A stretch of DNA of 64,000 nt from Rhodospirillaceae bacterium. GTDB taxonomy: Bacteria; Pseudomonadota; Alphaproteobacteria; Bin65. Position numbers and translations under genes: made by a program. The notes below the pieces were generated by a model. It saw only the letters and a program-made list of their open reading frames with translations. It was not told the origin of the DNA and did no database searches. Location: contig JAPPLJ010000025.1 of assembly GCA_028819475.1 (NCBI GenBank), forward strand, positions 1-64,000. The letters are read 5' to 3'. This document shows positions 38,880-60,969 of this stretch, piece after piece (within the stretch, counting starts at the first letter, position 1; every line of letters begins with the position of its first letter).

Positions 38880-38901
38880 GGTTCAATTCGATAAGGATTC
38901 A

Positions 38902-38926
38902 GGGGCGCTTCAAGCGCCCCTTTTTT
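38902..38926 (+). terminator. Intrinsic terminator after the second ammonium transporter
   Basis: GGGGCGCTT (38902-38910) and AAGCGCCCC (38912-38920) form a near-perfect stem followed by TTTTTT. Confidence 0.92.
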
Positions 38927-39067
38927 ATTTGTTGCGATTTATTGTATACTTGCGCCGATTCAATATGTCCCGATTCCGCGTGGGCATGGGCTCACGCCGC
39001 GAATCGGATGCAACGGCATGCCGTTCGGCGCGACGCACGCCGCCGTCCGGCACCATCGGGAGCAGCC

Positions 39068-41632: not shown

Positions 41633-41689
41633 CGCGTCCCCGCCGCCCGGATACCCGGCCCTCCCTTCCCGGCCGCATTCGAGGTCGAC

Positions 41690-42343
41690 ATGACATTGCC
41701 ACGCGCGATTCCGGGTCTCGCCGGCGCCGGCCTCGCCGCGCTCCTCCTGACGGCCGGCGCAGGCGCGCAGACACCGGACCCGGGACCGCTGAGCGCGCGG
41801 GACCGCGCCGACCTCAAGCGGATCGAAGCGAAGGTCAACAGTTTCCGCACGCTGCGCACCCGGTTCAGGCAGATTTCGCCCGGCGGCCGGATCAGCCGGG
41901 GCGACATCTTCATCCAGCGGCCGGGACAGATGCGGATTCAGTTCGACCGGCGGGATCTGGTGCTTCTCACGTCCCGGCTGTGGCTTATCGTGATTCAGGG
42001 CAAGCATGGCGAACCGCAGCATTTCCCGCTGAACGCGACGCCCGCCGGCATTCTCGTCCGCAGCGAGATACGCTTCGACCGGGACATCCGGGTCATTCGG
42101 GTTCACCGGACCGCAGGAGAGATTCTGGTCACGGTCGTTCGGCGGGATTCGTCGCGCCAAGGCCGGATGACCCTGGCCTTCGACCGCGACACGCTCGACC
42201 TGTCCGGCTGGACCGTTCTCGATGCCCAGGGCGAGCTCACGCAGGTTTTCCTGTCGGAAACGCAACTCGACGTCGCGCTCGATCCGTCGCTGTTTGCGTT
42301 GCCCGCGGGGCGCCTGCCGGCGCCTCACGGTAGCGACCGGTAG
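41690..42343 (+). CDS. lolA: Outer-membrane lipoprotein carrier LolA-like protein
   Basis: A 217-residue periplasmic protein with a signal peptide (about 1-26, cut near GAGAQTPD) and the LolA-type half-barrel: LKRIEAKVNSFRTLRTRFRQ, GDIFIQRPGQMRIQFDRR, then a long strand-rich part. In the Lol pathway LolA takes lipoproteins from the inner-membrane LolCDE complex to the outer membrane. Position right after ftsK is the usual one for lolA, which supports the call even though similarity is moderate. Confidence 0.87.
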   Translation: MTLPRAIPGLAGAGLAALLLTAGAGAQTPDPGPLSARDRADLKRIEAKVNSFRTLRTRFRQISPGGRISRGDIFIQRPGQMRIQFDRRDLVLLTSRLWLIVIQGKHGEPQHFPLNATPAGILVRSEIRFDRDIRVIRVHRTAGEILVTVVRRDSSRQGRMTLAFDRDTLDLSGWTVLDAQGELTQVFLSETQLDVALDPSLFALPAGRLPAPHGSDR

Positions 42344-42360
42344 CCCGGATCGAAGAACCA

Positions 42361-42389
42361 TTTTACGCGGCGGCGCGGATGCCTATAGT
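42361..42389 (+). promoter_or_regulatory. Candidate promoter giving a leaderless message
   Basis: TTTTAC (42361-42366), a 17-bp spacer and TATAGT (42384-42389) would start transcription at or next to the ATG at 42397. No Shine-Dalgarno sequence is present before that ATG. Confidence 0.5.
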
Positions 42390-42396
42390 GCGCGCC

Positions 42397-43209
42397 ATGA
42401 CCGTCCCCGTTCCTCCGTCCGCACTTGTCCCGATCGTCGGGGTTTCCGCCTGCCGCCGCACTTGGGAGGATACCTTCGTCGTCCACTGGGTGATGCAGCG
42501 CAATCTGGAAGCGATCCTCGAGGCGTCCGGCTGCGTGCCGCTGGCGGTGCCCGCCATGGCGCGGCATTTCCCGGACGGCGCGATCGACAGCATCCTCGAC
42601 CGTCTTGACGGCCTGCTGCTGACCGGCAGCCCGTCGAACGTCGAACCCCATCATTATGGCGCCGAGCCCTTTGAGGGCGATCTGAACGATCCGGACCGGG
42701 ACGCGACGACCCTGCCGCTGATCCGCGGTGCCGTCCGCCGCGGCATTCCGGTCCTCGCGATCTGCCGCGGCATACAGGAACTGAACGTCGCCATGGGCGG
42801 CAGCCTTTACGGCAAACTGCACGAAGCGCCCGGCCACCGGGATCACCGGTCGGACAAGACTCGGCCGAGGGGCGTGCGGTCGGCGCGCGAGCACCCGGTG
42901 GCCATTTCGGGGCAGGGTCTGCTGCGCCGGATTATCGATGCCGACAGGATCGTCGTGAACACGCTGCATGCGCAGGGGATCCGGGAGCCGGCGCCGGGCG
43001 CACGGATCAACGCCGTGGCGGACGACGGAGTGATCGAAGCGATCGAATTTCCGGAAAGCACCGGTTTCGTTCTCGGCGTGCAGTGGCATCCCGAAATCAC
43101 CCACGACACGGACGATAACAGCCGTGCCCTGTTCGAGGCGTTCGGCGCTGCGGTTCGGGCCTATGCCGGCGCGGATGCGGCCGGCGGCCTGCTGACCGCG
43201 GCCGAATAG
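42397..43209 (+). CDS. Class I glutamine amidotransferase, gamma-glutamyl-GABA hydrolase (PuuD)-like
   Basis: A 270-residue peptidase C26-type protein. The nucleophile is C123 (AICRGIQELNVAMGG) and the partners are the histidine in GVQWHPEI and the glutamate two residues on. The block TGSPSNVEPHHYG is typical of the PuuD group, which hydrolyses gamma-glutamyl-GABA in putrescine breakdown; other members act on gamma-glutamyl amines. The start at 42397 suits both homology and the leaderless promoter; an ATG at 42379 is in frame. Neighbouring genes give no pathway hint. Confidence 0.9.
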   Translation: MTVPVPPSALVPIVGVSACRRTWEDTFVVHWVMQRNLEAILEASGCVPLAVPAMARHFPDGAIDSILDRLDGLLLTGSPSNVEPHHYGAEPFEGDLNDPDRDATTLPLIRGAVRRGIPVLAICRGIQELNVAMGGSLYGKLHEAPGHRDHRSDKTRPRGVRSAREHPVAISGQGLLRRIIDADRIVVNTLHAQGIREPAPGARINAVADDGVIEAIEFPESTGFVLGVQWHPEITHDTDDNSRALFEAFGAAVRAYAGADAAGGLLTAAE

Positions 43210-43242
43210 GCGCCCCATCGCTTTCTGGCCGACCTTGCGGGC

Positions 43243-44031
43243 ATGAAACTCGTCACCTGGAACATCAATTCCATCCGCCCCCGCCTTCACCTGATCGAAC
43301 GGCTGGTCGCGGCCGATGACCCCGACGTGGTCTGCCTGCAGGAAACCAAGGTCGAGGACGGCAAGTTTCCGCTGGAGGCCTTGCGCGCTATGGGCTTCGC
43401 GCATATCGAAATCTTCGGCATGAAGGCCTATCACGGCGTGGCGATCCTTTCGCGCGTACCCTTGGCCGGCCACGCCCGGCATAACTGGTGCGAGATCGAC
43501 GATGCGCGCCACCAGTCAGTGACGCTGCCCGGCGGCATCGAGCTGCATAATGTCTATCTGCCGTCGGGCGGGGACGAGCCGGACCCGGAGATCAACCCGA
43601 AATTCGCCCACAAATTACGGTTCATGACCGAACAGGCCAGCTGGTGGGCGGCACAGGACCCGTCGAAGCCGCGCATCCTGGTCGGCGACCTGAACGTCGC
43701 GCCGCTGGAAACCGACGTGTGGTCCCACAAACAGCTTCTGAAGGTGGTGAGTCACACGCCCGTCGAGGTCGAGCATTTCGGGCGGATGCAGGCGGCCCAC
43801 GAATGGGTCGATGCCGTGCGCGCCAAAATCGACCCGGCCGAACCGCTGTTTACCTGGTGGAGCTACCGCGCCCGGGACTGGCGCGCCTCGAACCGGGGCC
43901 GGCGCCTCGACCATATCTGGGTGACGCCGCCGCTGGCGCCGAAAGTCGCCGACGCCAGGGTAATCGCCGATGCGCGGGATTGGGAAAAGGCGTCCGACCA
44001 CGCGCCGGTGCTGGTGGAATTGGACGCCTGA
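43243..44031 (+). CDS. xth: Exodeoxyribonuclease III
   Basis: A 262-residue AP endonuclease and 3'-5' exonuclease of base-excision repair. Characteristic blocks are WNINSIRPRL, CLQETKVEDGKFP (catalytic glutamate), GDLNVAPLETDVW, and the final SDHAPVLVELD with the catalytic D-H pair. The length matches ExoIII. It lies 33 bp after the amidotransferase gene. Confidence 0.95.
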   Translation: MKLVTWNINSIRPRLHLIERLVAADDPDVVCLQETKVEDGKFPLEALRAMGFAHIEIFGMKAYHGVAILSRVPLAGHARHNWCEIDDARHQSVTLPGGIELHNVYLPSGGDEPDPEINPKFAHKLRFMTEQASWWAAQDPSKPRILVGDLNVAPLETDVWSHKQLLKVVSHTPVEVEHFGRMQAAHEWVDAVRAKIDPAEPLFTWWSYRARDWRASNRGRRLDHIWVTPPLAPKVADARVIADARDWEKASDHAPVLVELDA

Positions 44032-45319: not shown

Positions 45320-45838
45320 TTACCGCCGGTACACGCAATAGGGCCAGGCCGAGACCCCTTCGGGGAGCGCCACGGCCGGGGGGTCCAGCGAGACAAGGCC
45401 GGGACTGCTCATATCCCGGTCGCCCAGCAGAATGCCACCCGGCGCCAGCCGCTGCGCCATGATGCTGCCGACGAACCGGGCGAGCGCGGCATCGGCCCGG
45501 CGGCTCTCGGTGCCGATATCGGCATGGGCAAGCGCCGGCGGCGCCTCGATTTCGGCCCAGCAGGCCGGCAGCGTCTCGCGAAAATCGCCGAGCAGGATCC
45601 GCTCCGGCGCCGGCCGGCTGTGCGCCGGCGCGTGGACCTCGTAATCGAACGCCCAGATGTCCCGGCCGGGAAACAGGCGCCGCAAATGGCTATAGGTCCG
45701 GCCCTTGCCGAGGCCGATTTCGAGAACCGGGCCGTCGATGCCGGAAACCCGTTCGGCGGCCCAGTCCAGCAGCACCCGCTGCGTAGCCAGCCGGGCGATC
45801 ATGCGCTCGAGCCGGCTTTCCGTCGCCGCTTGGCTCAT
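45320..45838 (-). CDS. Class I SAM-dependent methyltransferase
   Basis: A 172-residue Rossmann-fold methyltransferase. Motif I is VLEIGLGKGRTYSHL (about 39-53) and the acidic residue of motif II is in WAFDYEV. It is short for the fold and lacks a long substrate domain. It lies 19 bp downstream of the cyclic-nucleotide-binding gene and reads in the same direction, so it probably belongs to the same operon as the ABC protein. Methylation of a sugar or lipid head would suit the context, but this is inference. Confidence 0.83.
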   Translation of the reverse strand: MSQAATESRLERMIARLATQRVLLDWAAERVSGIDGPVLEIGLGKGRTYSHLRRLFPGRDIWAFDYEVHAPAHSRPAPERILLGDFRETLPACWAEIEAPPALAHADIGTESRRADAALARFVGSIMAQRLAPGGILLGDRDMSSPGLVSLDPPAVALPEGVSAWPYCVYRR

Positions 45839-45857
45839 CGGCCGCCGCCGCCTTCTG

Positions 45858-46304
45858 TCAGGCAGCGCTCAGCTCCCGGATCCGGGCGTTGGTCGCCTCC
45901 AGACGCTTGGCCAGTTCGCGCATGATTTCCACCGCGATCTGCGGAAACTCCATGACGAGGCGGAAAAACAGCTCTTTTGAGATCACCATCGCGTCGAGCC
46001 GGGTCGTCGCCTTCACCGTCGCCGTGCGCGGCACGTCGGTCAGGATGGCGATTTCGCCGATCAGCGCGTTCTTGCGGAAATGCGCCACGGTCAGCGGGCC
46101 GTCGTCGGTCTCGATGATCACGTCGGCCTCGCCCTCCACGATGATGTAGGCGCTGTCGCCTTCGTCGCCCTCGTGGAACAGGTATTCGCCTTCGTTGTAG
46201 GCGTGACGCTCGCTCGTGAAGGCCAGGAGCTTCAGTTTGGACGATTCGATATTGGCGAACATCGGAATGTTGCGCAGAATCTCGACTTCTTCGTTCAGGC
46301 TCAC
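45858..46304 (-). CDS. Stand-alone cyclic-nucleotide-binding domain protein
   Basis: A 148-residue Crp/cNMP-binding domain without any DNA-binding or catalytic domain. The phosphate-binding cassette is intact: GEIAILTDVPRTATV (about 85-99), where the arginine grips the cyclic phosphate and the glutamate the ribose. The last 30 residues (EIMRELAKRLEATNARIRELS) look like a coiled coil for self-association or docking. The GTG start at 46304 is fixed by GGAGG seven bases upstream. It follows the ABC gene by 62 bp and may regulate it, as cNMP domains do in other transporters. Confidence 0.86.
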   Translation of the reverse strand: MSLNEEVEILRNIPMFANIESSKLKLLAFTSERHAYNEGEYLFHEGDEGDSAYIIVEGEADVIIETDDGPLTVAHFRKNALIGEIAILTDVPRTATVKATTRLDAMVISKELFFRLVMEFPQIAVEIMRELAKRLEATNARIRELSAA

Positions 46305-46366
46305 GTTACGTCCTCCGGGCCCTCTGTCGGGCGCACTTTTCGCGGCCGGCCGGCCGTCGCTGCATT

Positions 46367-49096
46367 CTATTCCGATTCCAGCAGTTCCCGCAGCGTCGAA
46401 CCCTCCCTGTCGAGCTCGGCGAAACTGCCCTGCTCGACGACCCGGCCGCTCTTCATCACGATGACATGGTCGAAGTTTCGCGCGAAGCCGGGCCTGTGCA
46501 GCGACCAGATCACACCACGGCCCTTCATCTCGCCGAGAACGGCGTCGAGCACGCGGCGCTGGGCGGCGCCGTCGAGATTGCTGATGCCTTCGTTGACGAC
46601 GAAAAGGTCGGGCCGCTTGATCAGGCCGCGAGCCATATTGACCTTCTGCCGCTGGGCCGCCGACAGCCGGGCGCCGGCTACGCCCACGGAGTGGGCCAGC
46701 CCCGCCACCATCACGGCGTCGCGGAGCGACAGGGAATCGAGCACCTCCCCGATCATGGCGCTCAGCTTGCCGGCGGCGTTGGCTTCGCCGTAGGACACCT
46801 TGCCGAACAGGATGTTGTCCTGCAGGGTCGCCGCCCGGTTGTACCGGTCGGGGTCGAAGAACTCGACTTCGCCGCGCAGCGTGTCCGGCAGGGTCGCGGC
46901 GAAGATTTCCCGCGCTTTCAGTGCCTTGGCCTGGATTTCGTCGTTCAGCAGACCCAGGCGATGACGGGCGGGAATCAGCTTGAACGGCAGCGAACGCAGG
47001 CGGAACCGGTCTTCCTCGCGCATGTCCGCCGCGGTTTGCCCGGCCGTTCTGGCGAGGAGCTGCTGGTATTCCGGCATCTCTTCGGAGCCGAAGAAGCTGA
47101 ACTGGTCGAAGAAGGCGTGGCCCGGCGGCAGGTCGGCAAAAATCTCCACCATGGTTTCGGTGAGCTGCCGGCCGACCTCGAGCAGCGTGTCGGCAAGATC
47201 CGCTTCGTGGATCACCTGCCGGACAAACGGATGCTCGGCCAGCCGCTCGATATCGAAAACCGCGCCCGCCGGTGTGCCGAACAGCAGGTTTTCCGCAAGG
47301 GTTGCATTGGTGTTGTAGCGTGTCCGGTCGAACGGCTCGACCAGAGCCGACTGTTGCGTCTCGTCCAGTCTGGCACGCAGGGCCGCCCGGGCCGCAAGCA
47401 TCGCTTCGGCCAGATCGGGCCGCTCCGACGGATCGATCGTCCCGCGCAGGCCGAACTGGTACAGGTCGTCGCCCAGATCGACCAATCGCAGCATGTCCAC
47501 GCATTTCCGGTCCAGCGTCTCGCGATCGGAAACGCCGGCGGCGGCGTAGTCCACCCAGTCCGCCTCGGGATCGGCATCGATGTTCGCTGCCGCATGCGCA
47601 TCGCGGACATAGCGGTTGCGCTGCGAACGGGCGGACTCCGTCTCGGCCGTCGGCCGGAGCGGCCTGTAGCGCAGGCCATAGTCGAGATTTGCGCGCAGGT
47701 CGGTCGAGAACAGATAGGGCACCGGTCCGGCGAACGACATCCTCCGGCCGGTAAAGGGCTCGGGCAGATCGTCCAGGTGCCGGCCGGCCAGATCGACGCG
47801 ACCGCCCGTTCCTTTCACCAGCCGGGCGAGCAGCAACACCAGTTCGTCCCGGCCGCTGCTGCCGCTGCCGACGATCGCCGTATGCTTGCCGAGATCGACC
47901 GAGAAGGTGACGCCGTCGACGGTTTTCGACTGGCCGTCTTCGGAATAAGCAAGGCCGGCAGCCTCGAGGGTCCGGCCCATCGCCTCCGGGCCGGCTTCGT
48001 CGGTCAGCTGCAGGGACTCGTCGAACAGGCCGGGCGGATCGAACTGCTCGACCACCGCTTCATACTTCACCTTGATGTCGGCCTGGAGCTGGTAATAGTT
48101 CAGCAGTTCCTTCCACGGCGAACTGAGGTCCTTGTACGCCGCCAGCACGGCGGTCAGCGCGCCGATGGTCATGTCGCCGGCTATCACCAGGTAGCCGCCG
48201 ATCGCATAGAAGAAGAACGGCGTGAGTTGCGCCATGAAGCTGTTCAGGAACTTGATGGCGAACTTGCGGCGGAAAATTTCGTACCGGATTGTGTAGATGC
48301 GATCGAGCCGGCGGGCGATGCCGGCGCGCTCGAAGAGCGAGGCGTCGTTGGCATGGATTTCGGCAATGCCGGCGATCGATTCGCCGATATTGTCGGCAAG
48401 GCCGCGCACTTCCCGCACCCGCGCCTTGCCGAGCGCGATGACCCGCTTCTGCAGCTTTGGAACGATGTAGATCTGGAGCGGATAGAGCGCCGTCGCGGCG
48501 AGGCCGAGAAAGACGTCCTGGGCAAAGATGAATCCCAGATAGACCAGCAGCAGGCCGCCAAAATACAGCGGCGTCGACGTCGCCGTGCCGACATAGCCGC
48601 CGACGGGCTCCACCTCGGCGGTGATCATCGGAATGATCTCGCCCTGGGAAACTTTCTTGAAATGGGGCAGCGGAAACCGAAGGATGCGCGAGTACAGCAT
48701 GTAGCGCAGGCGGCGGAGCATCTGCTCGCCCAGCCGGCCGGCGTAGACGTTCAGCACGTATTTCACGCCGCCGCTGAGGATGACGAAGAACAGGAAGCCG
48801 AAGCTGAGCGCCATCAGGAAGGTGATCTGCTCCATTTCGGCGCCCAGAACGTCGCGCGCCCAGCCTCCTTTCGCCCCGATCGCCTGGTCGATGATCGCTT
48901 TCGGCAACTCCAGTGTCAGATAGATGATCGGCCAGGAAACGACGGTCAGGGCAAGCACAACAAGCTGCTGCCGCTTGCTGTACTTCATGATGAAGCGGAA
49001 GATGCTCGGCTCCAGCGGCACGTTCGGCTGATAGCCGGGGGTCTCGCGCCCCGGTAGCCGGCCGGCGCCAGCGCCTGCGGTCGCAGAATCCGCCAT
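46367..49096 (-). CDS. ABC exporter-like protein with degenerate, expanded ATPase domain
   Basis: A 909-residue protein. Residues about 40-340 form a six-helix type-1 ABC exporter transmembrane domain. The ATPase part (about 385-909) is roughly 520 residues, against about 240 usually. Walker A reads GSGSSGRD (410-417), losing both the lysine and the serine/threonine; the signature is LSAAQ (811-815); Walker B is FVVNE (832-836), with Asn for Asp; the switch histidine is kept (H867). About 350 extra residues sit between the Q-loop region and the signature, including two near-copies of FDxxRYNxxATLxxNxLFG at 589-607 and 747-765. It is divergent from the glycosyltransferase operon and heads one with the cNMP-binding and methyltransferase genes. 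Cargo is probably the product of that cluster. Confidence 0.85.
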   Translation of the reverse strand: MADSATAGAGAGRLPGRETPGYQPNVPLEPSIFRFIMKYSKRQQLVVLALTVVSWPIIYLTLELPKAIIDQAIGAKGGWARDVLGAEMEQITFLMALSFGFLFFVILSGGVKYVLNVYAGRLGEQMLRRLRYMLYSRILRFPLPHFKKVSQGEIIPMITAEVEPVGGYVGTATSTPLYFGGLLLVYLGFIFAQDVFLGLAATALYPLQIYIVPKLQKRVIALGKARVREVRGLADNIGESIAGIAEIHANDASLFERAGIARRLDRIYTIRYEIFRRKFAIKFLNSFMAQLTPFFFYAIGGYLVIAGDMTIGALTAVLAAYKDLSSPWKELLNYYQLQADIKVKYEAVVEQFDPPGLFDESLQLTDEAGPEAMGRTLEAAGLAYSEDGQSKTVDGVTFSVDLGKHTAIVGSGSSGRDELVLLLARLVKGTGGRVDLAGRHLDDLPEPFTGRRMSFAGPVPYLFSTDLRANLDYGLRYRPLRPTAETESARSQRNRYVRDAHAAANIDADPEADWVDYAAAGVSDRETLDRKCVDMLRLVDLGDDLYQFGLRGTIDPSERPDLAEAMLAARAALRARLDETQQSALVEPFDRTRYNTNATLAENLLFGTPAGAVFDIERLAEHPFVRQVIHEADLADTLLEVGRQLTETMVEIFADLPPGHAFFDQFSFFGSEEMPEYQQLLARTAGQTAADMREEDRFRLRSLPFKLIPARHRLGLLNDEIQAKALKAREIFAATLPDTLRGEVEFFDPDRYNRAATLQDNILFGKVSYGEANAAGKLSAMIGEVLDSLSLRDAVMVAGLAHSVGVAGARLSAAQRQKVNMARGLIKRPDLFVVNEGISNLDGAAQRRVLDAVLGEMKGRGVIWSLHRPGFARNFDHVIVMKSGRVVEQGSFAELDREGSTLRELLESE

Positions 49097-49292
49097 CAGG
49101 CCGGAAGAACCGCGGCGAAAGCCGCGTCAGGACTGGCAAAAATGCGCATGGATACCGACATTGAACCTAGCGTCCGGTTCTGACACCATAATTCAGGGCA
49201 AGGCGGACTGGCGATACGGAATCCGTGGCGCCGGGACGAATGGCGGGAATGCGGCCGCCACTGCCCAGGGGGTCCAGCCGATCGGAGCGGCG

Positions 49293-50585
49293 ATGGCGGC
49301 AGACAAGACAGCGCGAGCCGAGTGCAGTCCGGCCCTCCGGGAGGCCGGGGCTTCCGAAAGCCTGCCGGCGGACGCGCTCGGAGACGGTTTCCGCATCCTG
49401 ATCTACAGCCATGACAGTTTCGGCCTCGGGCATCTGCGCCGCTGCCGCGCCATCGCCCACGCGCTGGTCGAGCATCGCAGCAACCTTTCGGTCCTGATCC
49501 TATCCGGATCGCCGATCATCGGCAGTTTCGATTTCCGTTCGCGCGTCGATTTCGTGCGGGTTCCCGGCGTCATCAAGCTGCGCAACGGCGAATATACCGC
49601 GCTGAACCTCCATATCGGCCTGCAGCAGACCCTGGCGATCCGCGAGTCGATCATCCGGCACACCGCCGAAGTTTTCGCACCGCACATGTTTCTGGTCGAC
49701 AAGGAGCCGCTGGGCCTGCGCGGCGAGATCGAGGAAACGCTGGCCTTTCTCAAGGAACGCCGCACGCCCCTGGTCCTCGGACTGCGCGACGTTATCGACG
49801 AACCGGAACTGCTGCAGCCGGAATGGGAACGCAAGAACGCCGTCCCCGCCCTCTCGAAATACTACGATTCGATCTGGGTTTACGGCCTGCCGCAGATCTG
49901 CGACCCGCTCGCCGGGCTGCGGGTGCCGAAATCCGTTCGGCGCAAGATGGTCTATACCGGCTATCTGCATCGGGACCTTCCGACCGGCGGACCCGCAGAC
50001 CCGTCGCAACTCGAAGATCCGTACATCCTGGTGACGCCCGGTGGCGGCGGCGACGGCGAAGCGCTGGTCGATTGGGTGCTGCGCGTCTACGAACAGCGCC
50101 GGACCATGCCGTTGCGCGCCGTCATCGTGACCGGTCCGTTCATGCAAGCCGACAAGCAGGCCGAATTCCAGCAGCGCGCCGCCGCCCTGCACGATGTCAG
50201 CGTCACGACCTTCGATGCGGCGTTCGAGCATCTCATTTCGGGCGCCGAAGCGGTTGTTGCGATGGGCGGCTACAACACTTTTTGCGAGGTTCTGTCGTTC
50301 GACAAGCGGGCCTTGCTGGTGCCGCGGACCGTGCCGCGCCGCGAACAGTTCATTCGCGCCTGCCAGGCCCAGGAGGCCGGCCTCCTGACCATGCTGGAAG
50401 ACGACGGGGTCCGCGACGTTGACCGGATGGCGACGGCGTTACGGCAACTGCCGCAGCAGAACCGGCCCTCGGATGTGATCGTCCCGGGGCTGCTGGACGG
50501 TCTTGACAATGTCAACCGGCTGGTCGGGCGGATCATGGACACCGGGCCCCGCCACGTCCTGCCGGGCGCCGTGAAGGCCGCCTGA
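49293..50585 (+). CDS. Glycosyltransferase, COG4671/MurG-like (GT-B)
   Basis: A 430-residue predicted glycosyltransferase. The N-terminal half has a glycine-rich start GFRILIYSHDSFGLGHLRRC (in two parts; H near 43) as in MurG-type GT-B enzymes, and the C-terminal half has ILVTPGGGGDG and the donor-binding AVVAMGGYNTFCEVLS. The start at 49293 is preceded by GGAGCG. It is the first gene of the rightward operon. The donor is probably a UDP- or dTDP-sugar; acceptor unknown. Confidence 0.85.
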   Translation: MAADKTARAECSPALREAGASESLPADALGDGFRILIYSHDSFGLGHLRRCRAIAHALVEHRSNLSVLILSGSPIIGSFDFRSRVDFVRVPGVIKLRNGEYTALNLHIGLQQTLAIRESIIRHTAEVFAPHMFLVDKEPLGLRGEIEETLAFLKERRTPLVLGLRDVIDEPELLQPEWERKNAVPALSKYYDSIWVYGLPQICDPLAGLRVPKSVRRKMVYTGYLHRDLPTGGPADPSQLEDPYILVTPGGGGDGEALVDWVLRVYEQRRTMPLRAVIVTGPFMQADKQAEFQQRAAALHDVSVTTFDAAFEHLISGAEAVVAMGGYNTFCEVLSFDKRALLVPRTVPRREQFIRACQAQEAGLLTMLEDDGVRDVDRMATALRQLPQQNRPSDVIVPGLLDGLDNVNRLVGRIMDTGPRHVLPGAVKAA

Positions 50586-50589
50586 GGCG

Positions 50590-51879
50590 TTGACGGCAAC
50601 GACGAGACCGCCAGGCGCACCCGGTCCGACCGGGCCGATTGTTTTCGTCCTCAAGGGCTATCCGCGCCTGTCGGAAACCTTTATTGCCCAGGAAATCCTT
50701 GCGCTGGAAAGGCTTGGGCTGGATATCCGCCTGTTTTCGCTGCGCTATCCGACCGAGACGCGGCGCCATCCGGTTCATGACGAGATTGCCGCGCCGGTCA
50801 CCTATCTGCCGGAATACCTGCATCGGGAACCGCGCCGGGTTATGGCCGCCTGGCGCCGCGCACGACGCCTGCCGGGCTATGACCGGGCCGTTCGCGTGTG
50901 GCGGCGCGATCTTTGGCGCGACCGGACGCGCAACCGGGTGCGCCGCTTCGGGCAGGCTGTGGTCTTGGCGGCCGAACTGCCGGACGACGTCAGGCGGCTG
51001 CACGCCCATTTCCTGCATACGCCGTCGTCGGTCGCCCGCTATGCCGCCACCATGACCGGCCTGCCGTGGAGCGCCGCGGCGCACGCCAAGGACATCTGGA
51101 CGATCCCGGACTGGGAAAAGCGGGAAAAACTGGCCGACCTGGACTGGCTGGTGACCTGCACCCGGTACGGCTGGGCGCATTTGCGCGACCTCGCCCCCCA
51201 TCCGGACAAGGTCAGCCTCGTCTACCACGGCCTCGATCTGCGACGGTTTTCGCCCGGCGGCGGAACGCCTTCGAACCGGGACGGCTCGGACCCGAACGAT
51301 CCGGTCCGGCTCCTGTCGGTCGGGCGCGCTGTCGAGAAAAAGGGGTTTCCGGTCCTGATCGAAGCCCTGGCCTCGCTGCCCCGGACGCTCCACTGGCGCT
51401 GGACGCTGATCGGCGACGGCCCGCTGCTTGCCGGCCTTCGGAAGCTGGCGGCGCAGCAGGGCATCGCCGACCGGATCGACTGGCGCGGCGCCCTTGACCA
51501 GCAGGCCGTGCTGGAGGCCTACCGCTCGGCGGACCTGTTCGTGCTGCCCAGCCGGATCGGCAGCGACGGCGACCGGGACGGGCTGCCCAACGTGCTGCTG
51601 GAAGCGCAGAGCCAGGGCCTGTGTTGCCTGTCAACGAGCCTGTCGGGCATTGGAGAATTGATCGATCATTTAAAAACAGGATATCTGGTCGAGCCGGGCA
51701 AGGCCTCAGCGCTGCGTGATGCCTTGCCGGACCTGATCCGCGATCCGGAACGCCGCCGTCGTTATGGCGCGGGGGGCGAAGAGCGGGTCCGGTCCGGATT
51801 CGATGCTGAACTGACCGTCCGGGCGCTGCATGACCGGTTCATCGGACGCAGCACGCAGCCGGCGAAAGACGGCCGGTGA
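50590..51879 (+). CDS. Glycosyltransferase family 4-type protein
   Basis: A 429-residue GT-B enzyme. It opens with VFVLKGYPRLSETFIAQEI, typical of GT4 exopolysaccharide enzymes, and has VYHGLDLRRFSPGG, the beta-strand LLSVGRAVEKKGFPVL, and the EX7E-like donor block at about residues 328-345 (DRDGLPNVLLEAQSQGL). The start is a TTG at 50590, four bases after the previous stop, with GAGGCG just upstream; no ATG is available nearby. It overlaps the next gene by four bases. Confidence 0.87.
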   Translation: MTATTRPPGAPGPTGPIVFVLKGYPRLSETFIAQEILALERLGLDIRLFSLRYPTETRRHPVHDEIAAPVTYLPEYLHREPRRVMAAWRRARRLPGYDRAVRVWRRDLWRDRTRNRVRRFGQAVVLAAELPDDVRRLHAHFLHTPSSVARYAATMTGLPWSAAAHAKDIWTIPDWEKREKLADLDWLVTCTRYGWAHLRDLAPHPDKVSLVYHGLDLRRFSPGGGTPSNRDGSDPNDPVRLLSVGRAVEKKGFPVLIEALASLPRTLHWRWTLIGDGPLLAGLRKLAAQQGIADRIDWRGALDQQAVLEAYRSADLFVLPSRIGSDGDRDGLPNVLLEAQSQGLCCLSTSLSGIGELIDHLKTGYLVEPGKASALRDALPDLIRDPERRRRYGAGGEERVRSGFDAELTVRALHDRFIGRSTQPAKDGR

Positions 51880-53006
51880 ATATCGCCTTCTATGCGCCGA
51901 TGAAGCCGCCCGACGCGGCCCGCCCCTCCGGCGACCGCACGATCGCCCGCATGCTGTTGCGGGCCTTGGCGGAAGCGGGTCACGATGCGACGGTCGCCTC
52001 CAGAGTGCGCAGCTATATTGCGGAGCCGCCGGACCGGAAGCGCTTCAGGACTCTCCAGCGGCAGGCCGACGACGAAGTTCGGCGGCTGATCGACGAATGG
52101 GGGCGCAATCCGCCCGATCTCTGGTTCACTTATCACCTGTTCCACAAGGCGCCGGATCTGATCGGCCCACCGGCCTGCCGGGCAGCCGGCCTGCCCTATG
52201 TCGTCGCCGAGGCCAGCTTTGCGCCGAAGCGGGCAACCGGGCCTTGGGCCGGCGGCCATGAGCGCGTGCGCGACGCGATCGGGCAGGCCGACCATGTGTT
52301 CTTTCTCAATCCGGATGACGAAGCGTGCGTTCTGCCGCTCTTGAAGCCCCGGGCAACCAGTTCCCGCTTGCCGCCGGTGGTTTGTATACAGGAAACGCTT
52401 GAACCGGACCGGCGCCGCGAAGAGCGCCGCCGCCTGGCGGCCGAATGGACTCTTCCGCCGGAGGCGGTCTGGGCCGTTGCGGTCGGCATGATGCGGCCGG
52501 GCGACAAACTCGTTTCCTACAGACGTTTGGCGCAGGCTTGGGCGAACCTGGCGGAAGACGGCGCGCATCTCCTGGTCGTCGGCGACGGCGAGTCAGACAC
52601 CGAAGTTCGACACTTGTTTTCCGACTGCGCGGCCCAGGTCAGCTTCCTCGGCATGTTGCAACCGGCCAATCTGAATTCTGTATACAGAGCAGCCGATCTC
52701 TTCGTTTGGCCGGGTATACAAGAGGCAGTCGGCATGGCGACGCTGGAAGCCATGGCCGCCGGACTGCCGGTGGCGGTCGGCCCCTGGGGATCGGTGGCGC
52801 AGGAAATCGAGCCGGGCGTGACAGGGCTCGTCGCGCGGACCGGCGACGAGCTCGCGCAAGCGGCGCGGCGCCTGATCGCGAGCCCGGAGCTGCGCCGGAA
52901 CCTGGGCGCGGCGGCGCGGGCCCACGTTCTTCGCCGGCACAGTCTGCCGCTGGCGGCGAAGACGCTGACCGCGGTGTTCGAGGACGTGGCGGGCCGCACC
53001 CGATGA
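51876..53006 (+). CDS. Glycosyltransferase family 1/4-type protein
   Basis: A 376-residue GT-B protein from the GTG at 51876. Its first block is NIAFYAPMKPPDAARPSGDRTIARML, readable in sections; the donor-side block is FVWPGIQEAVGMATLEAMAAGLPV, the usual EX7E region (about 285-310). Overlaps of four bases with the genes on both sides indicate coupled translation. The central region is more divergent than in well-known GT4 members. Confidence 0.83.
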   Translation: MNIAFYAPMKPPDAARPSGDRTIARMLLRALAEAGHDATVASRVRSYIAEPPDRKRFRTLQRQADDEVRRLIDEWGRNPPDLWFTYHLFHKAPDLIGPPACRAAGLPYVVAEASFAPKRATGPWAGGHERVRDAIGQADHVFFLNPDDEACVLPLLKPRATSSRLPPVVCIQETLEPDRRREERRRLAAEWTLPPEAVWAVAVGMMRPGDKLVSYRRLAQAWANLAEDGAHLLVVGDGESDTEVRHLFSDCAAQVSFLGMLQPANLNSVYRAADLFVWPGIQEAVGMATLEAMAAGLPVAVGPWGSVAQEIEPGVTGLVARTGDELAQAARRLIASPELRRNLGAAARAHVLRRHSLPLAAKTLTAVFEDVAGRTR

Positions 53007-53623
53007 CAAGAATTCTGTTCCTGCGGCACGGGCCGACCGACTGGAACACCGAAGGACGGGTCCAGGGACAAACCGACGTGCCCCTGAGCGACGCCGGCCG
53101 GAAGTCCGTGCAGGGCTGGCGGCTGCCGCCCTTTGCGGTGAACTGGGAGTGGTACGCCAGCCCGCTGCGCCGGGCGGTCGAGACGGCGACGCTGTTGGGC
53201 GCCGATCCCGCGCGCCTGCATCTCGACAACCGCCTCAAGGAAATCGACTGGGGCGATTGGGAAGGAGCGATCCTTCAAGAACTGAGGGCCGAACAGGGCG
53301 AGGCCATGCGGCGGATTGAGGCGCGCGGCCTCGACATGGCGCCGCCCAACGGCGAATCGCCCCGCCAGTTGACCAAACGGCTGGCCGAATGGCTGGTGGA
53401 AGCGGCGGCGCGGCGGCGGGATATCTGTGCCGTCTGCCACGCCGGTGTCCTGCGCGGCGCCTATACGCTGGCGACCGGCTGGGACATGCGCCGCGCCGCG
53501 CCGCTCGAAAGGGGTCACGCCTGGGCCCATCTCTACGGCCTGGGGCCGGACGGCGCGCTGACGCCCGAGACGCTCAATATCCGCCTTGCCGATCGGGAAC
53601 CGCCGTCCGGCTATGACCGCTGA
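53003..53623 (+). CDS. Histidine phosphatase family protein
   Basis: A 206-residue phosphoglycerate-mutase-like enzyme. The nucleophile is H9 in LRHGPTDWN, the second arginine region is SPLRRAVETA, and the second histidine is in CHAGVLRGAY. Such enzymes are broad phosphatases (alpha-ribazole phosphate, phosphosugars). Its place inside a glycosyltransferase operon suggests a phosphosugar or lipid-phosphate substrate. Four bases overlap the preceding gene and eleven the next. Confidence 0.9.
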   Translation: MTRILFLRHGPTDWNTEGRVQGQTDVPLSDAGRKSVQGWRLPPFAVNWEWYASPLRRAVETATLLGADPARLHLDNRLKEIDWGDWEGAILQELRAEQGEAMRRIEARGLDMAPPNGESPRQLTKRLAEWLVEAAARRRDICAVCHAGVLRGAYTLATGWDMRRAAPLERGHAWAHLYGLGPDGALTPETLNIRLADREPPSGYDR

Positions 53624-54755
53624 AGCGCCGCCCGCCATCCTGTTCTGGGTCCAGCATCTGCTCGGCGTCGGCCACTTCGCGCGGACTGCGGCGCTGGCCG
53701 GAAGCGCCGCTGCCAACGGCTACGCCGCCCATATTGCGAGCGGCGGCGCAAGCGTTCCGGAAGCGCGGACAGGCGGCGCAGAGCTTCATCCGCTTGCGGC
53801 GCTGCGCGCCGGCGATGAATCGTTCGGCCGCCTAGTCAACGCGCGGGGCGACCCGGCCGGCGATGCGGACTGGCGGGAACGCAGCGACCGGCTCGCGGCC
53901 ATTGTCTCAAAAATCCGGCCGCAGCTTATCGTCCTGGAGCACTATCCCTTCGGGCGCCGCGCCTTCGGGCGGGAAATTGCAGCCCTGCTTGACCGCGCGC
54001 GGGCGCAGGGCGCCGTCAGGGTCGCGGTCTCCGTGCGGGATATCCTGGTCGGCCGCAAGGCGGAACGGTGGGTCGAGGCCGCCGAATTCATCGAGCGCCA
54101 CGTCGACCGCGTGTTCGTCCATGGCGACCCGGCCTTCGTCGCGTTCGACGAGACCTTCCCCCTGGCGCGCCGGATCGAGCCGAAACTTCACTATACCGGC
54201 TATGTCGATCCGCACCCGGCGGAAGCGGCAGCCCCGGCGGAACCGGAGATCCTGGTGAGCAGCGGCGGCGGTCGCGTCGGCTCCGCCCTGCGCCGCGCGG
54301 CGCTGGCCCTCGGCGGCGGGCCGGACGGCGAACCGATCCGGATCCGGGCGGGGCCGTCCGTTCCGGCGCATGCCCTCGCTGCGCTAACGGCCTCGGCCGG
54401 ACCGCGGATAACGGTGGAGCGCAACAGGCCCGATTTCCGCGCGCGCCTGGCCGGTTGCGCCTGTTCGGTCTCCCAGGCGGGATACAATACCGTTGTCGAC
54501 ATCCTGAAGACCGGCGCTCCCTCGGTCCTGGTGCCGTTCGACGCGAGCGGCGAAACCGAACAGATGCGCCGCGCCCGCCGGCTCGAGGAAATCGGCCGGG
54601 CGGTCGTCGTGCCGGAAGCCGAACTGACACCGGCGCGATTGCGGATCGCGATCGCCGCCGCGCGGGCACTGCCGCGCAGGCCCGTCGAAATCCGGCTGGA
54701 CGGCGCGGAAGCGTTTGCGCGCGCGCTCTCTGGCCTGCTTGCGGGTTCCGCATGA
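53613..54755 (+). CDS. Glycosyltransferase, second COG4671/MurG-like protein
   Basis: A 380-residue GT-B protein that resembles the first gene of the operon: ILFWVQHLLGVGHFARTAAL at the N-terminus, VSSGGGRVGSALRRAAL in the middle and CACSVSQAGYNTVVDILK near the donor site. Having two members of this uncommon group in one operon suggests they add different sugars to one carrier. It starts at the ATG at 53613 inside the previous gene and overlaps the next by four bases. Confidence 0.84.
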   Translation: MTAEAPPAILFWVQHLLGVGHFARTAALAGSAAANGYAAHIASGGASVPEARTGGAELHPLAALRAGDESFGRLVNARGDPAGDADWRERSDRLAAIVSKIRPQLIVLEHYPFGRRAFGREIAALLDRARAQGAVRVAVSVRDILVGRKAERWVEAAEFIERHVDRVFVHGDPAFVAFDETFPLARRIEPKLHYTGYVDPHPAEAAAPAEPEILVSSGGGRVGSALRRAALALGGGPDGEPIRIRAGPSVPAHALAALTASAGPRITVERNRPDFRARLAGCACSVSQAGYNTVVDILKTGAPSVLVPFDASGETEQMRRARRLEEIGRAVVVPEAELTPARLRIAIAAARALPRRPVEIRLDGAEAFARALSGLLAGSA

Positions 54756-55495
54756 CCGGCTGGGACGCGCTCCGCCGCGAACTCGACCTGTGGGCCGCGC
54801 GCGGCGAGGCGCCGGCGCTGTGGTGGCGCGACGACGATGCGGTCGAGCCGTCGGCGGCCCTTGAGCGGACGATGGCGCTCGCCGAGGCAGTTGCGGTGCC
54901 GCTCGCGCTGGCAGTCATACCCGCGGCAAACCGGCTTACCGCGGCGGATCTGAGCGGCCCGGTCACGGCGGTGCAGCACGGCTATGCGCACCGGAACCAT
55001 GCCGGGCCGAAGGCGAAGAAGTGCGAACTGGGCGCCGAACGCCGCGCCGATCATGTGATCGCCGAACTGATGACCGGAAGGTATGTGCTGGAACAATCCT
55101 TCGGAGATTCCTTCCGGCCGGTCCTTGTGCCGCCCTGGAACCGGCTTGGCGCCCACCTGCCCGCAATGCTGCCGGAACTGGGTTACATCGGCCTCAGCCG
55201 GTTCGGCACGCGCGACCGGCCGGCGATCGGCGCCATGCGGATCGTCAACGCCCATGTCGACATCATCGACTGGCAGGGAAGCCGCGGTTTCGTCGGCACC
55301 GAAACTGCGCTCGCCCGGACTGTCGGCCACCTGCGGGCGCGCCGCGAAAGCGCGGCCGACCCGGCGGAAGCGACCGGCCTGCTGACCCACCACCGGGTGC
55401 ACGACGCAGGCTGCTGGGACTTCCTCGAAAACCTGTTCGCAGTAACGGCCGGTAGCGGCCTCGCCAAGTGGCGCAGCGCTACGTCGTTGTTCTAG
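54752..55495 (+). CDS. Polysaccharide-deacetylase-like protein
   Basis: A 247-residue NodB-type barrel. The metal site seems intact: adjoining aspartates in LWWRDDDAVEP (about 23-31), and histidines in QHGYAHRNH (about 73-81). A late histidine pair in LTHHRVHD would be the catalytic base area. No signal peptide or membrane helix is seen, so it would act on a cytosolic glycan or glycolipid precursor before export, unlike most secreted deacetylases. It ends the overlapping gene series. Confidence 0.8.
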   Translation: MTGWDALRRELDLWAARGEAPALWWRDDDAVEPSAALERTMALAEAVAVPLALAVIPAANRLTAADLSGPVTAVQHGYAHRNHAGPKAKKCELGAERRADHVIAELMTGRYVLEQSFGDSFRPVLVPPWNRLGAHLPAMLPELGYIGLSRFGTRDRPAIGAMRIVNAHVDIIDWQGSRGFVGTETALARTVGHLRARRESAADPAEATGLLTHHRVHDAGCWDFLENLFAVTAGSGLAKWRSATSLF

Positions 55496-55562
55496 CCCGG
55501 AAACAGCGCGGAATGCGACGCCGGCCGTGACCCGGGCGCGAAATCCGGGCTAGGCTTGCGCC

Positions 55563-56075
55563 ATGACCGTACTGCGCTATCCGCGGGCGACCTTGCGCAA
55601 CGACTATATCCGCGCCGGCATCGGGGTGGCCCTGTGCGTGCCGCTGGCCGTGATTTCCCGGGGCAGTTCGTTCGGATTCTGGTTATTCGTCGCCCTGATC
55701 GTGCTCTTCGCGGCCTTTGGCGCACGGACCTGGCTGCGCGCGCAGGCCGAATACAGATTGACCGAAGCCGGGCTCCTGCGCACAAATGCCGCGTTCAGTA
55801 GGAAGGTGGCGACCGGGGTTGCCTGGGCCGAACTGTCCGGCCTGACGCTGCGCTTCTATCCTCTGCGCCGCGACAGGTCCGATGGGTGGATGCAACTGAC
55901 CGTCCGGGCAGCCGGGGCGCGCCTGTCCATCGATTCGACGCTCGAGAATTTCGACGCGATCGCCGAAGCGGCGCTGGCTGCCGGATTGCGCAACGACCTG
56001 CCGATGACCCAGACGACCTTGGCGAACTTTCAGGCCCTGGGATTTTCGCCCGAAAAGCTTTCGGACTCCAACTGA
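55563..56075 (+). CDS. Hypothetical membrane protein, possible PH-like domain
   Basis: A 170-residue protein with two hydrophobic segments (about 17-33 and 35-54) followed by a soluble strand-rich part (YRLTEAGLLRTNAAF, then WAELSGLTLRFYPLRR), the layout of bacterial PH-domain membrane proteins. The ATG is preceded by TAGGCT ending six bases upstream and no ribosome site, again a possible leaderless start. No family is firmly recognised. Confidence 0.7.
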   Translation: MTVLRYPRATLRNDYIRAGIGVALCVPLAVISRGSSFGFWLFVALIVLFAAFGARTWLRAQAEYRLTEAGLLRTNAAFSRKVATGVAWAELSGLTLRFYPLRRDRSDGWMQLTVRAAGARLSIDSTLENFDAIAEAALAAGLRNDLPMTQTTLANFQALGFSPEKLSDSN

Positions 56076-56093
56076 CCGTCAGGCGGGAAGAAC

Positions 56094-57988
<1,895 letters not shown>

Positions 57989-57992
<4 letters not shown>

Positions 57993-59923
57993 CGCTGTAT
58001 CAGCGATGGATTGCCGGTGCGGCGCTGGCGGCGACAAGCCTGGCCGGCGCCGGCAGCGCGGCCCGGGCACAGCCCTATATCGAGCCGCCCTGGCTCAAGC
58101 CAAAAATTGCAACAGGCGTCCTAGCGCCGATCGCGCTGCGATTGCCGGCGACGCCGTCGGTCGTATCCTATGCCGGCACGGCGAAAGAGCCGGGCCGTTA
58201 CGGCGGCTCGCTGACCATGCTGATGGCACGGGCCAAGGATACCCGGATGGCTGTGGTCTATGGTTACGCCCGTCTGGTGGCCTATGACGCCGAATACCGG
58301 CTGAAGCCCGATATCCTGGAGCGGTTCGAGGTGAAGGACGGCCGGACCTTCACCTTCACCCTGCGCAAGGGCCATCGCTGGTCGGACGGCGCGCCCTTCA
58401 CCACCGACGACTTCCGCTATTGGTGGGAAGATGTCGTTCACAACAGGGTGCTGTCGCGATTCGGCGTGCCCCAGGCCTTGCTGGTCGACGGCCGGAAGCC
58501 GAAGGTCGAGTTTCCCGACCGTTACACCGTTCGCTACAGCTGGACGAAGCCGAACCCCTATTTCCTGCCCGCGCTGGCCGGGCCGCGGCCGCTCTATCTG
58601 TACATGCCGCGCCACTATATGCAGCGCTTCCACATCGATTACGCAGAGAAGAAATTTCTCCGCAAAATGACGAGGAACGGCCTGAAGCCGGACGGCTGGG
58701 CCAAGTTCCACCGCAAGCGCGGCCGGATGTACCGGTTCCAGAACCCGGCGCTGCCGACATTGCAGCCCTGGATCCCGACCACCGCGCCGCCGGCGGACCG
58801 TTATGTCTTCGTCCGCAATCCCTATTTCCACCGGATCGACCGCAATGGCCGCCAGCTGCCCTATATTGACCGGCTGGTCTTCATCATCGCCGACAGCAAG
58901 ATCGTCGCCGCCAAGGCCGGGGTCGGCGAGACCGACCTGCAGGGCCGCTATCTGCGCTTTACCGACTTCACCTTCCTCAAGCGCGGCGAAGCGCGGGGCA
59001 AGCACAGGGTCTATCAATGGCAGACCGCCGTCGGCGCCCAGATTGCGCTCTATCCGAACCTGAACCACAAGGATCCGGTGTGGCGCGGATTGTTCGGCGA
59101 TGTCCGCTTCCGCCGTGCGCTTTCCCTCGGCATCGACCGGCGGGAGATCAACAGGGTGATGTATTACGGGCTCGCCGCCGAGGGCGGCGATACCGTGTTG
59201 CCGAGCAGTCCGCTGTTCCGGCCGGAATACCGCAACGCCTGGGCACGCTTCGATCCCGACCGGGCGAATGCCCTGCTGGACGAGATCGGCCTGATCCATC
59301 GCGACGGCGAGGGCTATCGCCTGCTGCCCGACGGACGGCCGCTCGAAATCATCGTCGAGGCGGCTTCGGAGGGCAGCGAATATACCGACGCGATGCGCCT
59401 GATACAGGATTCCTGGCGCCGTATCGGCGTCCGCCTGTTCCAGAAAAACACGCGGCGCGAAATGTTCCGCCGCCGCGTCTACGCGGGCCTGACCCATATC
59501 GCGATGTGGACGGGGATGGATTACGCCGACGTCCGGGCAGACACGCCGCCGCTGGCGTTGGCGCCGACTGACCAGGTCCAGCTCCAGTGGTCTCAATGGG
59601 GCCTCCATTATGCGAGCAAGGGCCGGTCGGGGCAGAAGCCGACCGATCCCGGCGCACTCCGGCTGATCGAGCTGCTGCGCCGGTGGGAGGCCGCCGGCTC
59701 GATGGCGCAACGGCGCAGTATCTGGCACCGGATGCTGAAGATTTCCGCGGACCGGGTCTATTCGATCGGCCTGGTCGGCGGCGTGATCCAGCCGGTCGTC
59801 GTGAACGTAAGCCTGCGCAACGTGCCGAAAACCGGGGTCTGGGCCTGGAACCCCGGGGCCCATCTGGGCATCTATCGGCCCGATACGTTCTGGTTCGCCA
59901 AGCCGTCCGGGGCGACCCGCTGA
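57989..59923 (+). CDS. Peptide-type ABC transporter substrate-binding protein
   Basis: A 644-residue periplasmic protein of the SBP_bac_5 family with a signal peptide (about 1-29, cut near ARAQPY). The core includes the family lines FTFTLRKGHRWSDGAPFTTDDF and RRALSLGIDRREINRVMYYG, in sections. It is about 100 residues longer than OppA/DppA, as in the YejA-like and related groups that carry larger or unusual peptides. It follows the ATPase by a start-stop overlap. Cargo is unknown. Confidence 0.92.
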
Positions 59924-59970
59924 CGATGCCGCACCGTCGCTCCGCCCGCCCGCGCTGACCGGCAAGGCCG

Positions 59971-60969
59971 ATGCTCCGCTATATCGCCCATCGCCTGCTG
60001 ATCATGGTGCCGACCCTGATCGCGATCAGCTTCATCGTGTTCGTCGTCATCCAGCTTCCGCCCGGCGACTATCTGACGACACTGATCGAAGAGCTCCGGG
60101 AACTGGGCGAGCCGGCCGACCTGAAACAGATCGAGGCGCTGCGCGAGGAATACGGCCTCGACCAGCCCTTCCTGGTCCAGTATGTCCAGTGGGTCTTCGG
60201 GCTGGTCCAGGGCGATCTCGGTTATTCCTTCGAATACGAGCAGCCGGTGGCCGACGTGGTGGGCGACCGGTTGTGGCTCTCCTTTATCGTCTCGGTCGCG
60301 ACCATCATTTTCACCTGGATCGTCGCCTTCCCGATCGGCGTCTACTCGGCGACCCACCAGTACAGCTGGGCCGACAATTCCCTCACCTTCATCGGCTTCC
60401 TGGGGCTGGCGACGCCGAATTTCCTGCTCGCCCTAGTCATGGTCTATTTCGCCAACGTCTGGTTCGGAACCGAGATCGGCGGCCTGATGGACGAGCGGTA
60501 TATCGGCCAGCCGTGGGGTTGGGGGAAGATCGTCTCGGTCCTCGAGCATCTGTGGATCCCGGTCATCGTGATCGGCACGTCCGGCACCGCCGGTATGATC
60601 CGCCGCCTGCGCGCCAACCTGCTGGACGAGCTTCAGAAGCAGTATGTCGTGACCGGCCGGGCCAAGGGCCTGCCGCCGTTCCGGCTACTGGTCAAATATC
60701 CGCTGCGCATGTCGCTCAACCCGTTCATCTCGGATATCGGCGACCTGCTGCCCCAGGTGATTTCGGGCGCCGTCATCGTGTCGGTGGTGCTCAACCTGCC
60801 GACCACCGGCAAGATGCTCTATGAAGCGCTGCTCAGCCAGGACATGTATCTGGCCGGCTCCTTCCTGATGTTCCTCGCCCTGCTGACCGTGCTCGGCGTG
60901 CTGGTCTCCGATCTGGCGCTGGCCCTGCTCGATCCACGGATCCGGCTCCAGGGCCGGGCGGAAAAATGA
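59971..60969 (+). CDS. Peptide-type ABC transporter permease, subunit B type
   Basis: A 332-residue inner-membrane permease with six helices. It starts LRYIAHRLLIMVPTLIAISF, typical of DppB/OppB/YejB, and has the cytoplasmic EAA loop near VVTGRAKGLPPFRLL (about 225-240). It overlaps the next permease by four bases, forming a heterodimeric channel with it. Confidence 0.94.
   Translation: MLRYIAHRLLIMVPTLIAISFIVFVVIQLPPGDYLTTLIEELRELGEPADLKQIEALREEYGLDQPFLVQYVQWVFGLVQGDLGYSFEYEQPVADVVGDRLWLSFIVSVATIIFTWIVAFPIGVYSATHQYSWADNSLTFIGFLGLATPNFLLALVMVYFANVWFGTEIGGLMDERYIGQPWGWGKIVSVLEHLWIPVIVIGTSGTAGMIRRLRANLLDELQKQYVVTGRAKGLPPFRLLVKYPLRMSLNPFISDIGDLLPQVISGAVIVSVVLNLPTTGKMLYEALLSQDMYLAGSFLMFLALLTVLGVLVSDLALALLDPRIRLQGRAEK

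Follow-up and report, generated by a model that had tools for sequence, protein, structure and literature searches.

We analysed a 64,000-nucleotide stretch of contig JAPPLJ010000025.1 from a Rhodospirillaceae bacterium (hereafter the window, to which coordinates refer unless another locus is named), in which two divergent groups of genes encode an ATP-binding cassette (ABC) exporter-like protein and a set of predicted glycan enzymes. The leftward group, on the minus strand, comprises the genes for an S-adenosylmethionine methyltransferase of 172 amino acids (45320-45838; Pfam Methyltransf_17, E 7e-42), a stand-alone cyclic nucleoside monophosphate (cNMP)-binding protein of 148 amino acids with a GTG start (45858-46304; Pfam, E 9e-20), and the ABC exporter-like protein itself, of 909 amino acids (46367-49096; Pfam ABC_membrane, E 2e-16, and ABC_tran). 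The rightward group, on the plus strand, opens with GTa, a GT28-type (MurG/MJ1255-like, COG4671-type) glycosyltransferase (49293-50585; Pfam Glyco_tran_28_C, E 4.5e-8), whose start is probably the ATG at 49293 rather than a TTG farther upstream. It continues with two GT4 glycosyltransferases, GT4a (50590-51879; EpsE-like by profile, Pfam and NCBIfam) and GT4b (51876-53006; Pfam), a branch 1 histidine phosphatase (53003-53623; Pfam His_Phos_1, E 2e-39), a second GT28/COG4671-type glycosyltransferase, GTb (53613-54755; Pfam), and a deacetylase of NodB/CE4 fold (54752-55495), recognised from its AlphaFold2 (AF2) model and metal-site residues. GTa and GT4a are separated by a 4-base gap, and the junctions GT4a/GT4b, GT4b/phosphatase, phosphatase/GTb and GTb/deacetylase overlap by 4, 4, 11 and 4 bases, respectively. 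Re-analysis thus recovered all nine genes of the initial annotation in the same order, strands, coordinates and overlaps, and the families it had named for the glycosyltransferases, the phosphatase, the cNMP protein and the methyltransferase agree with Pfam and NCBIfam.

The unit does not end at 55495, where the initial annotation, omitting the importer and the cyclase, had closed it. Same-strand genes run on past the deacetylase, with gaps of at most 67 bp, into an Opp-type importer that extends to 62144 and co-occurs with the other genes. This segment encodes a small membrane protein of 170 amino acids (55563-56075; no Pfam or NCBIfam match above cut-off), an importer ATPase with two complete nucleotide-binding domains (NBDs; 56094-57992; Pfam and motifs), a family 5 (Opp-type) solute-binding protein related to SPH1118 (57989-59923; Pfam SBP_bac_5, E 1e-52), an Opp4B-like permease B (59971-60969; Pfam BPD_transp_1) and an Opp4C-like permease C (60966-62144; Pfam BPD_transp_1 and OppC_N). 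Convergent to the importer genes, on the minus strand, lies the gene for a membrane class III adenylate/guanylate cyclase, the start of which is uncertain (62161-63561; Pfam Guanylate_cyc, E 7.5e-12). Promoter and terminator scans performed no better than on shuffled sequence.

Conservation of the locus

Linkage was assessed in 80 related loci from public genomes, picked by similarity to the ABC protein and comprising alpha-, beta- and gammaproteobacterial records, many of them short contigs; two (L044 and L045) come from close relatives of the window. The cNMP gene was found near the ABC gene in 73 of the 80 loci, GT4a in 60, GTa, GT4b and the importer ATPase in 55 each, and GTb in 53, while the small membrane protein, fast-evolving and syntenic, was present in 44; a methyltransferase homologue lay near the ABC/cNMP pair in 35 loci and also occurs at rhizobial loci. 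For the 40 loci with complete 10-kb flanks, the median was 8 of 9 core partners. Gene order is rearranged in beta- and gammaproteobacteria-labelled records (e.g., L080, L086 and L110), so that the association of the genes outlasts rearrangement, and its recurrence in dozens of divergent genomes argues that the neighbourhood is not due to chance. On rhizobial plasmids, on pSymB of Sinorhizobium meliloti and in Sulfitobacter, the importer, GTa, GT4a, GTb, the ABC protein and the cNMP domain are found together, and the versions in rhizobia and Sulfitobacter include a gene for a nucleotide-sugar dehydrogenase.

As the 80 loci had been selected on ABC similarity, the counts were repeated in 241 alphaproteobacterial genomes drawn evenly from the class. 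The ABC protein was present in 90 genomes (about a third), GTa in 86 and the importer binding protein in 82 (a count that leaves out G067 and G214, which gave paralogue-level matches only); every genome carrying either of the latter two was ABC-positive, with no case of GTa or binding protein without the ABC protein. Fisher p-values for these co-occurrences were 3e-61 and 1e-55, which ignore shared ancestry and are indicative only. An unrelated control gene of the window (42379-43206) was detected in 80 of the 90 ABC-positive and in 65 of the 151 ABC-negative genomes. Physical proximity of the two operons in relatives, which the initial annotation had set as a test, was confirmed: of the 40 full-flank loci, 31 have GTa no farther than 10 kb from the ABC gene, and of the 86 genomes carrying both genes, 59 have them no more than 15 kb apart. 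For the other 27, GTa lay beyond 15 kb or on a different contig; some of these cases are perhaps contig breaks, and others are 39 kb to 3 Mb apart on one contig. By the same measure, the importer binding protein was distant from the ABC gene in 40 of 82 genomes. Overall, the conserved locus spans 45320 to 62144, probably reaching 63561, and almost certainly constitutes one functional system.

Several features of individual genomes were also recorded. Four genomes (G054, G163, G198 and G243) encode the ABC protein but no close GTa. The ABC gene of G054 still lies beside the cNMP and methyltransferase genes, so that the pair may have a role independent of the glycosyltransferases, or else the genomes may be incomplete. 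Three divergent copies of the ABC protein occur at three places in G152, and two Methyltransf_17 copies flank the cNMP gene in L047 (12703-14200), L085 (12676-14200), G008, G009 and G011. Genes for FtsK, LolA, GATase and exonuclease III (window 38564-44031) are recurrent upstream neighbours in many closer relatives, which suggests an old chromosomal position. A large mechanosensitive-channel gene adjoins the locus in Sulfitobacter (L036:11169-13424) and S. meliloti (L043:6562), hinting at an osmotic link.

An ABC exporter fold with degenerate ATPase motifs

The conserved transmembrane domain of the ABC protein is of the ABC exporter type (Pfam ABC_membrane and fold search), and profile and fold matches show that it shares this domain and the overall NBD fold with type IV (ABCB-type) exporters and with lipid or glucan flippases, namely MsbA, PglK, TM287/288 and ChvA/NdvA. 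It departs from them in an NBD enlarged by about 280 residues, and in that the Walker A, Walker B and H-loop motifs are degenerate in nearly all members of the family. In the AF2 model, which has a predicted local distance difference test (pLDDT) score of 83, the NBD core is kept and the insert consists mostly of helices. Three conserved N-x-x-[FYL]-G type motifs were identified, one at the usual site after the Q-loop (470-474) and two additional ones, of N-x-L-F-G type, inside the insert (603-607 and 761-765).

In the window protein, Walker A reads GSGSSGRD in place of GxxGxGK[ST], and Walker B reads LFVVNEG, with Asn replacing the Asp; the catalytic Glu and the H-loop His are retained. An alignment of 81 homologues revealed that (i) GK[ST] is present in 7, (ii) the Walker B Asp in 12, (iii) the catalytic Glu in 53, and (iv) the H-loop His in 31; all four motifs were found in a single sequence, and none of them in 14. 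The most divergent members (L023, L024 and L036) are likewise degenerate, whereas the same check found the motifs intact in five ordinary exporters from the sampled genomes. The description of the protein as ABC exporter-like therefore holds for its fold and not for its ATPase motifs, Walker A and B being lost family-wide. Computed against congeneric relatives, the ratio of nonsynonymous to synonymous polymorphism (pN/pS) lay at 0.05-0.11 in the transmembrane domain and at 0.14-0.24 in the NBD, which indicates purifying selection; these values, together with the same loss on divergent branches, rule out pseudogene formation as the cause of the motif loss. Since the Walker residues are lost throughout the family, an ATP-driven exporter cannot be assumed and, judging from the motifs, the usual ATP-driven mechanism should not apply to the protein. 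In S. meliloti, the ABC gene spans two reading frames, and the switch falls at the same position in 1021 (pSymB; L043:26724-29373) and in ml47 (L034:19556-22203).

A degenerate site could be accounted for if the protein formed a heterodimer with a normal half-transporter whose gene lies elsewhere and which contributes the working ATPase site, as in TM287/288, BmrCD or CydDC. Heterodimeric exporters with one degenerate site are common (e.g., PMC12038006, PMC4046567), and the fold matches of the window protein include TmrAB and TM287/288. We nevertheless regard this explanation as unlikely, as the loci share no recurrent gene for a second exporter and only this family has the 280-residue insert. 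To our knowledge, moreover, the degenerate halves of known heterodimers retain an intact Walker A, whereas GK[ST] is found here in only 7 of 81 sequences.

Alternatively, following a SUR-like logic, the protein might act as a membrane receptor or scaffold, with its NBD and the cNMP protein controlling the glycosyltransferases or the importer. The family-wide loss of the ATPase motifs from a retained fold and the close partnership with a cNMP-binding protein would both fit such a role; however, constraint is strongest in the transmembrane domain, whose basic residues, among them K112, R271, K278 and K282, include ones that are invariant or nearly so, in keeping with substrate handling, and the locus would then encode no way out for the product. 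On balance, we judge a pure receptor or scaffold improbable. A function in anti-phage defence was discarded, as PADLOC matched only the generic NBD and cNMP domains and no whole protein.

The cNMP-binding protein and the cyclase

The cNMP protein has the canonical phosphate-binding cassette GEIAILTDVPRTAT and no DNA-binding domain; the stretch GEIAILTDVPRTA conforms to the cassette pattern GE-x7-PR-x-A, and residues G83, E84, P92, R93 and A95 are the same in 90% or more of the 72 sequences compared. In five loci (L036, L094, L101, L102 and L109) the domain is fused to the C-terminus of the ABC protein; a fused version occurs, for example, in Sulfitobacter dubius. A homologue of the window cyclase adjoins the locus in G011, G044 and G051, and cyclases, of a different kind, are found near the rhizobial versions. 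The class III cyclase is a possible signalling partner of the cNMP protein, for which cyclic AMP (cAMP) would be the presumed ligand. Next after the cyclase lies a gene for a metallo-beta-lactamase (MBL)-fold hydrolase (L156:3735 onwards), homologous to genes at the rhizobial, G011, G039 and G044 loci.

An attachment of a cNMP-type domain to an exporter is also known from HetC of Nostoc (PMC10986499). HetC differs in having a peptidase domain, an essential ATPase and an N-terminal cNMP domain that binds ppGpp, whereas in the present family the cNMP moiety stands alone or is fused to the C-terminus.

The glycan enzymes

The catalytic residues of the histidine phosphatase (R8-H9, R57, E80 and H146) are conserved. 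The deacetylase has no Pfam match; its AF2 model (pLDDT 97) matches CE4/NodB deacetylases in the PDB, and D27-D29, H76, H80 and P128-W129-N130-R131 are conserved, the Asp-His-His metal site being present. The earlier deacetylase-like call is borne out by this fold match and these residues, and the protein is of CE4/NodB type by fold, with high confidence, and by metal site, its activity being predicted. It shares fold and metal-site residues with the CE4/NodB enzymes and differs in giving no Pfam match and in showing no export signal by eye; the deacetylase is probably cytosolic.

No Wzx, Wzy, Wzc, KpsMT, Wzm/Wzt or polyprenyl-phosphate sugar transferase was found at the locus or among its recurrent neighbours, in line with the initial annotation, which had noted the lack of Wzx/Wzy, Wzc, KpsMT and a lipid-carrier transferase. 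A standard capsule, O-antigen or exopolysaccharide operon, to which the EpsE-like profile of GT4a could point, is consequently very improbable, and we rejected it for want of these hallmark genes. As regards the product, the glycolipid trimmed before export that the initial annotation suggested would be one candidate, and a soluble oligosaccharide fits just as well.

The importer and its binding protein

The importer is a complete Opp-type system, with two permeases, a family 5 binding protein and an ATPase in which Walker A, signature and Walker B are intact in both NBDs. Among solved structures, the binding protein is most closely related to 5ipw and to SPH1118 (PDB 7ver, E 4e-67), a pectin-binding protein (PMC9314435). 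It belongs to family 5, as do the binding proteins of Opp4-type oligopeptide importers and SPH1118, and keeps the equivalents of the stacking Trp594 and of one arginine, Arg466, of SPH1118; the equivalents of Asn53 and of the uronate-site residues Arg57, Arg438 and Arg496, in contrast, are not conserved, and no NCBIfam Opp model reaches its cut-off. An oligosaccharide is a plausible ligand on these grounds and pectin is not indicated; despite the strong relation to SPH1118, a pectin or uronate importer was rejected, as key arginines are not conserved.

A polysaccharide lyase gene lies between the cyclase and the importer in S. meliloti only, among the loci examined (L034:7656-8624). This gene and the relation to SPH1118 would be compatible with a scavenging and modification system, in which the importer takes up an environmental oligosaccharide that the cytosolic enzymes remodel. 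We hold this to be quite unlikely, considering that four genomes encode both the ABC protein and GTa but no close importer binding protein, that the locus encodes four glycosyltransferases and no glycoside hydrolase, and that the uronate-contact residues are not conserved.

A proposed export-and-recovery circuit

We tentatively propose, as the most economical reading and one that we rate at somewhat less than an even chance, that a short, de-acetylated glycan or glycolipid is made in the cytosol, moved by the ABC-type protein under nucleotide control and taken back up through the importer. Because the locus lacks a polyprenyl-phosphate sugar transferase, a flippase and a polymerase, the glycan built by the four cytosolic GT-B glycosyltransferases would either be soluble or grow directly on a membrane lipid. 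Cytosolic processing by the phosphatase and the deacetylase would follow. Transport of the product across the inner membrane would then fall to the ABC-derived membrane protein, which would hydrolyse no ATP itself and would be gated by the cNMP-binding protein in response to cAMP or another nucleotide from the neighbouring cyclase, and the ATP-driven importer would recapture an oligosaccharide from the periplasm. The outcome would be a regulated circuit of glycan export and recovery, of which we infer the product, the direction of transport and the energy source. The more specific idea that this is an ABC-exporter-derived family carrying out cNMP-gated transport of a cytosolic glycan free of ATP hydrolysis, paired with an ATP-driven recovery importer, is offered as a doubtful one.

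Several points weigh against the proposed circuit. Lys or Arg occupies the position of the Walker A lysine in 71 of the 81 ABC sequences and, given that the catalytic Glu is kept in 53, nucleotide binding may persist. The split ABC gene of S. meliloti 1021 and ml47 may be broken or recoded, with the rest of the locus persisting. By analogy with the HetC domain and its ppGpp ligand (PMC10986499), the cNMP protein may bind a nucleotide other than cAMP and, with the uronate residues Arg57 and Arg438 not conserved, the ligand of the importer may be a peptide. Finally, no biochemistry for any member of the locus was found in the literature searched, which was queried by rhizobial locus tags and gene content and from which subscription papers mostly fell outside.

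Relation to known systems and biological meaning

The same search yielded no description of the locus and no known pathway for its homologues, in agreement with the initial annotation, which had suggested a possible uncharacterised glycoconjugate system. The msbA2 operon of S. meliloti (SMb21188-SMb21191), which has a known symbiosis effect, also pairs glycosyltransferases with an exporter, and its product is an unknown polysaccharide (PMC3687685, PMC12239276). The chance that the window belongs to the msbA2 pathway is negligible, however: msbA2 lies at about 938 kb of pSymB and encodes a normal-sized exporter of 597 amino acids, whereas the window-related locus is found about 100 kb away, at 822-845 kb, so that identity of the two is refuted by coordinates and protein size. 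SMb20804 and SMb20805, which the unannotated pSymB record does not locate, have been linked to capsular polysaccharide (PMC5539429). Each component of the system belongs to a known superfamily, and the gene set appears to be undescribed.

A glycan system present in roughly a third of the sampled alphaproteobacteria, including nitrogen-fixing symbionts and marine roseobacters, is thus apparently unnamed and without an assigned product. Its ABC-exporter fold without the residues of an ATP-driven machine, maintained across a divergent family under selection, makes the power source directly testable, and the partnership of a cNMP protein with a cyclase points to second-messenger control of glycan traffic.

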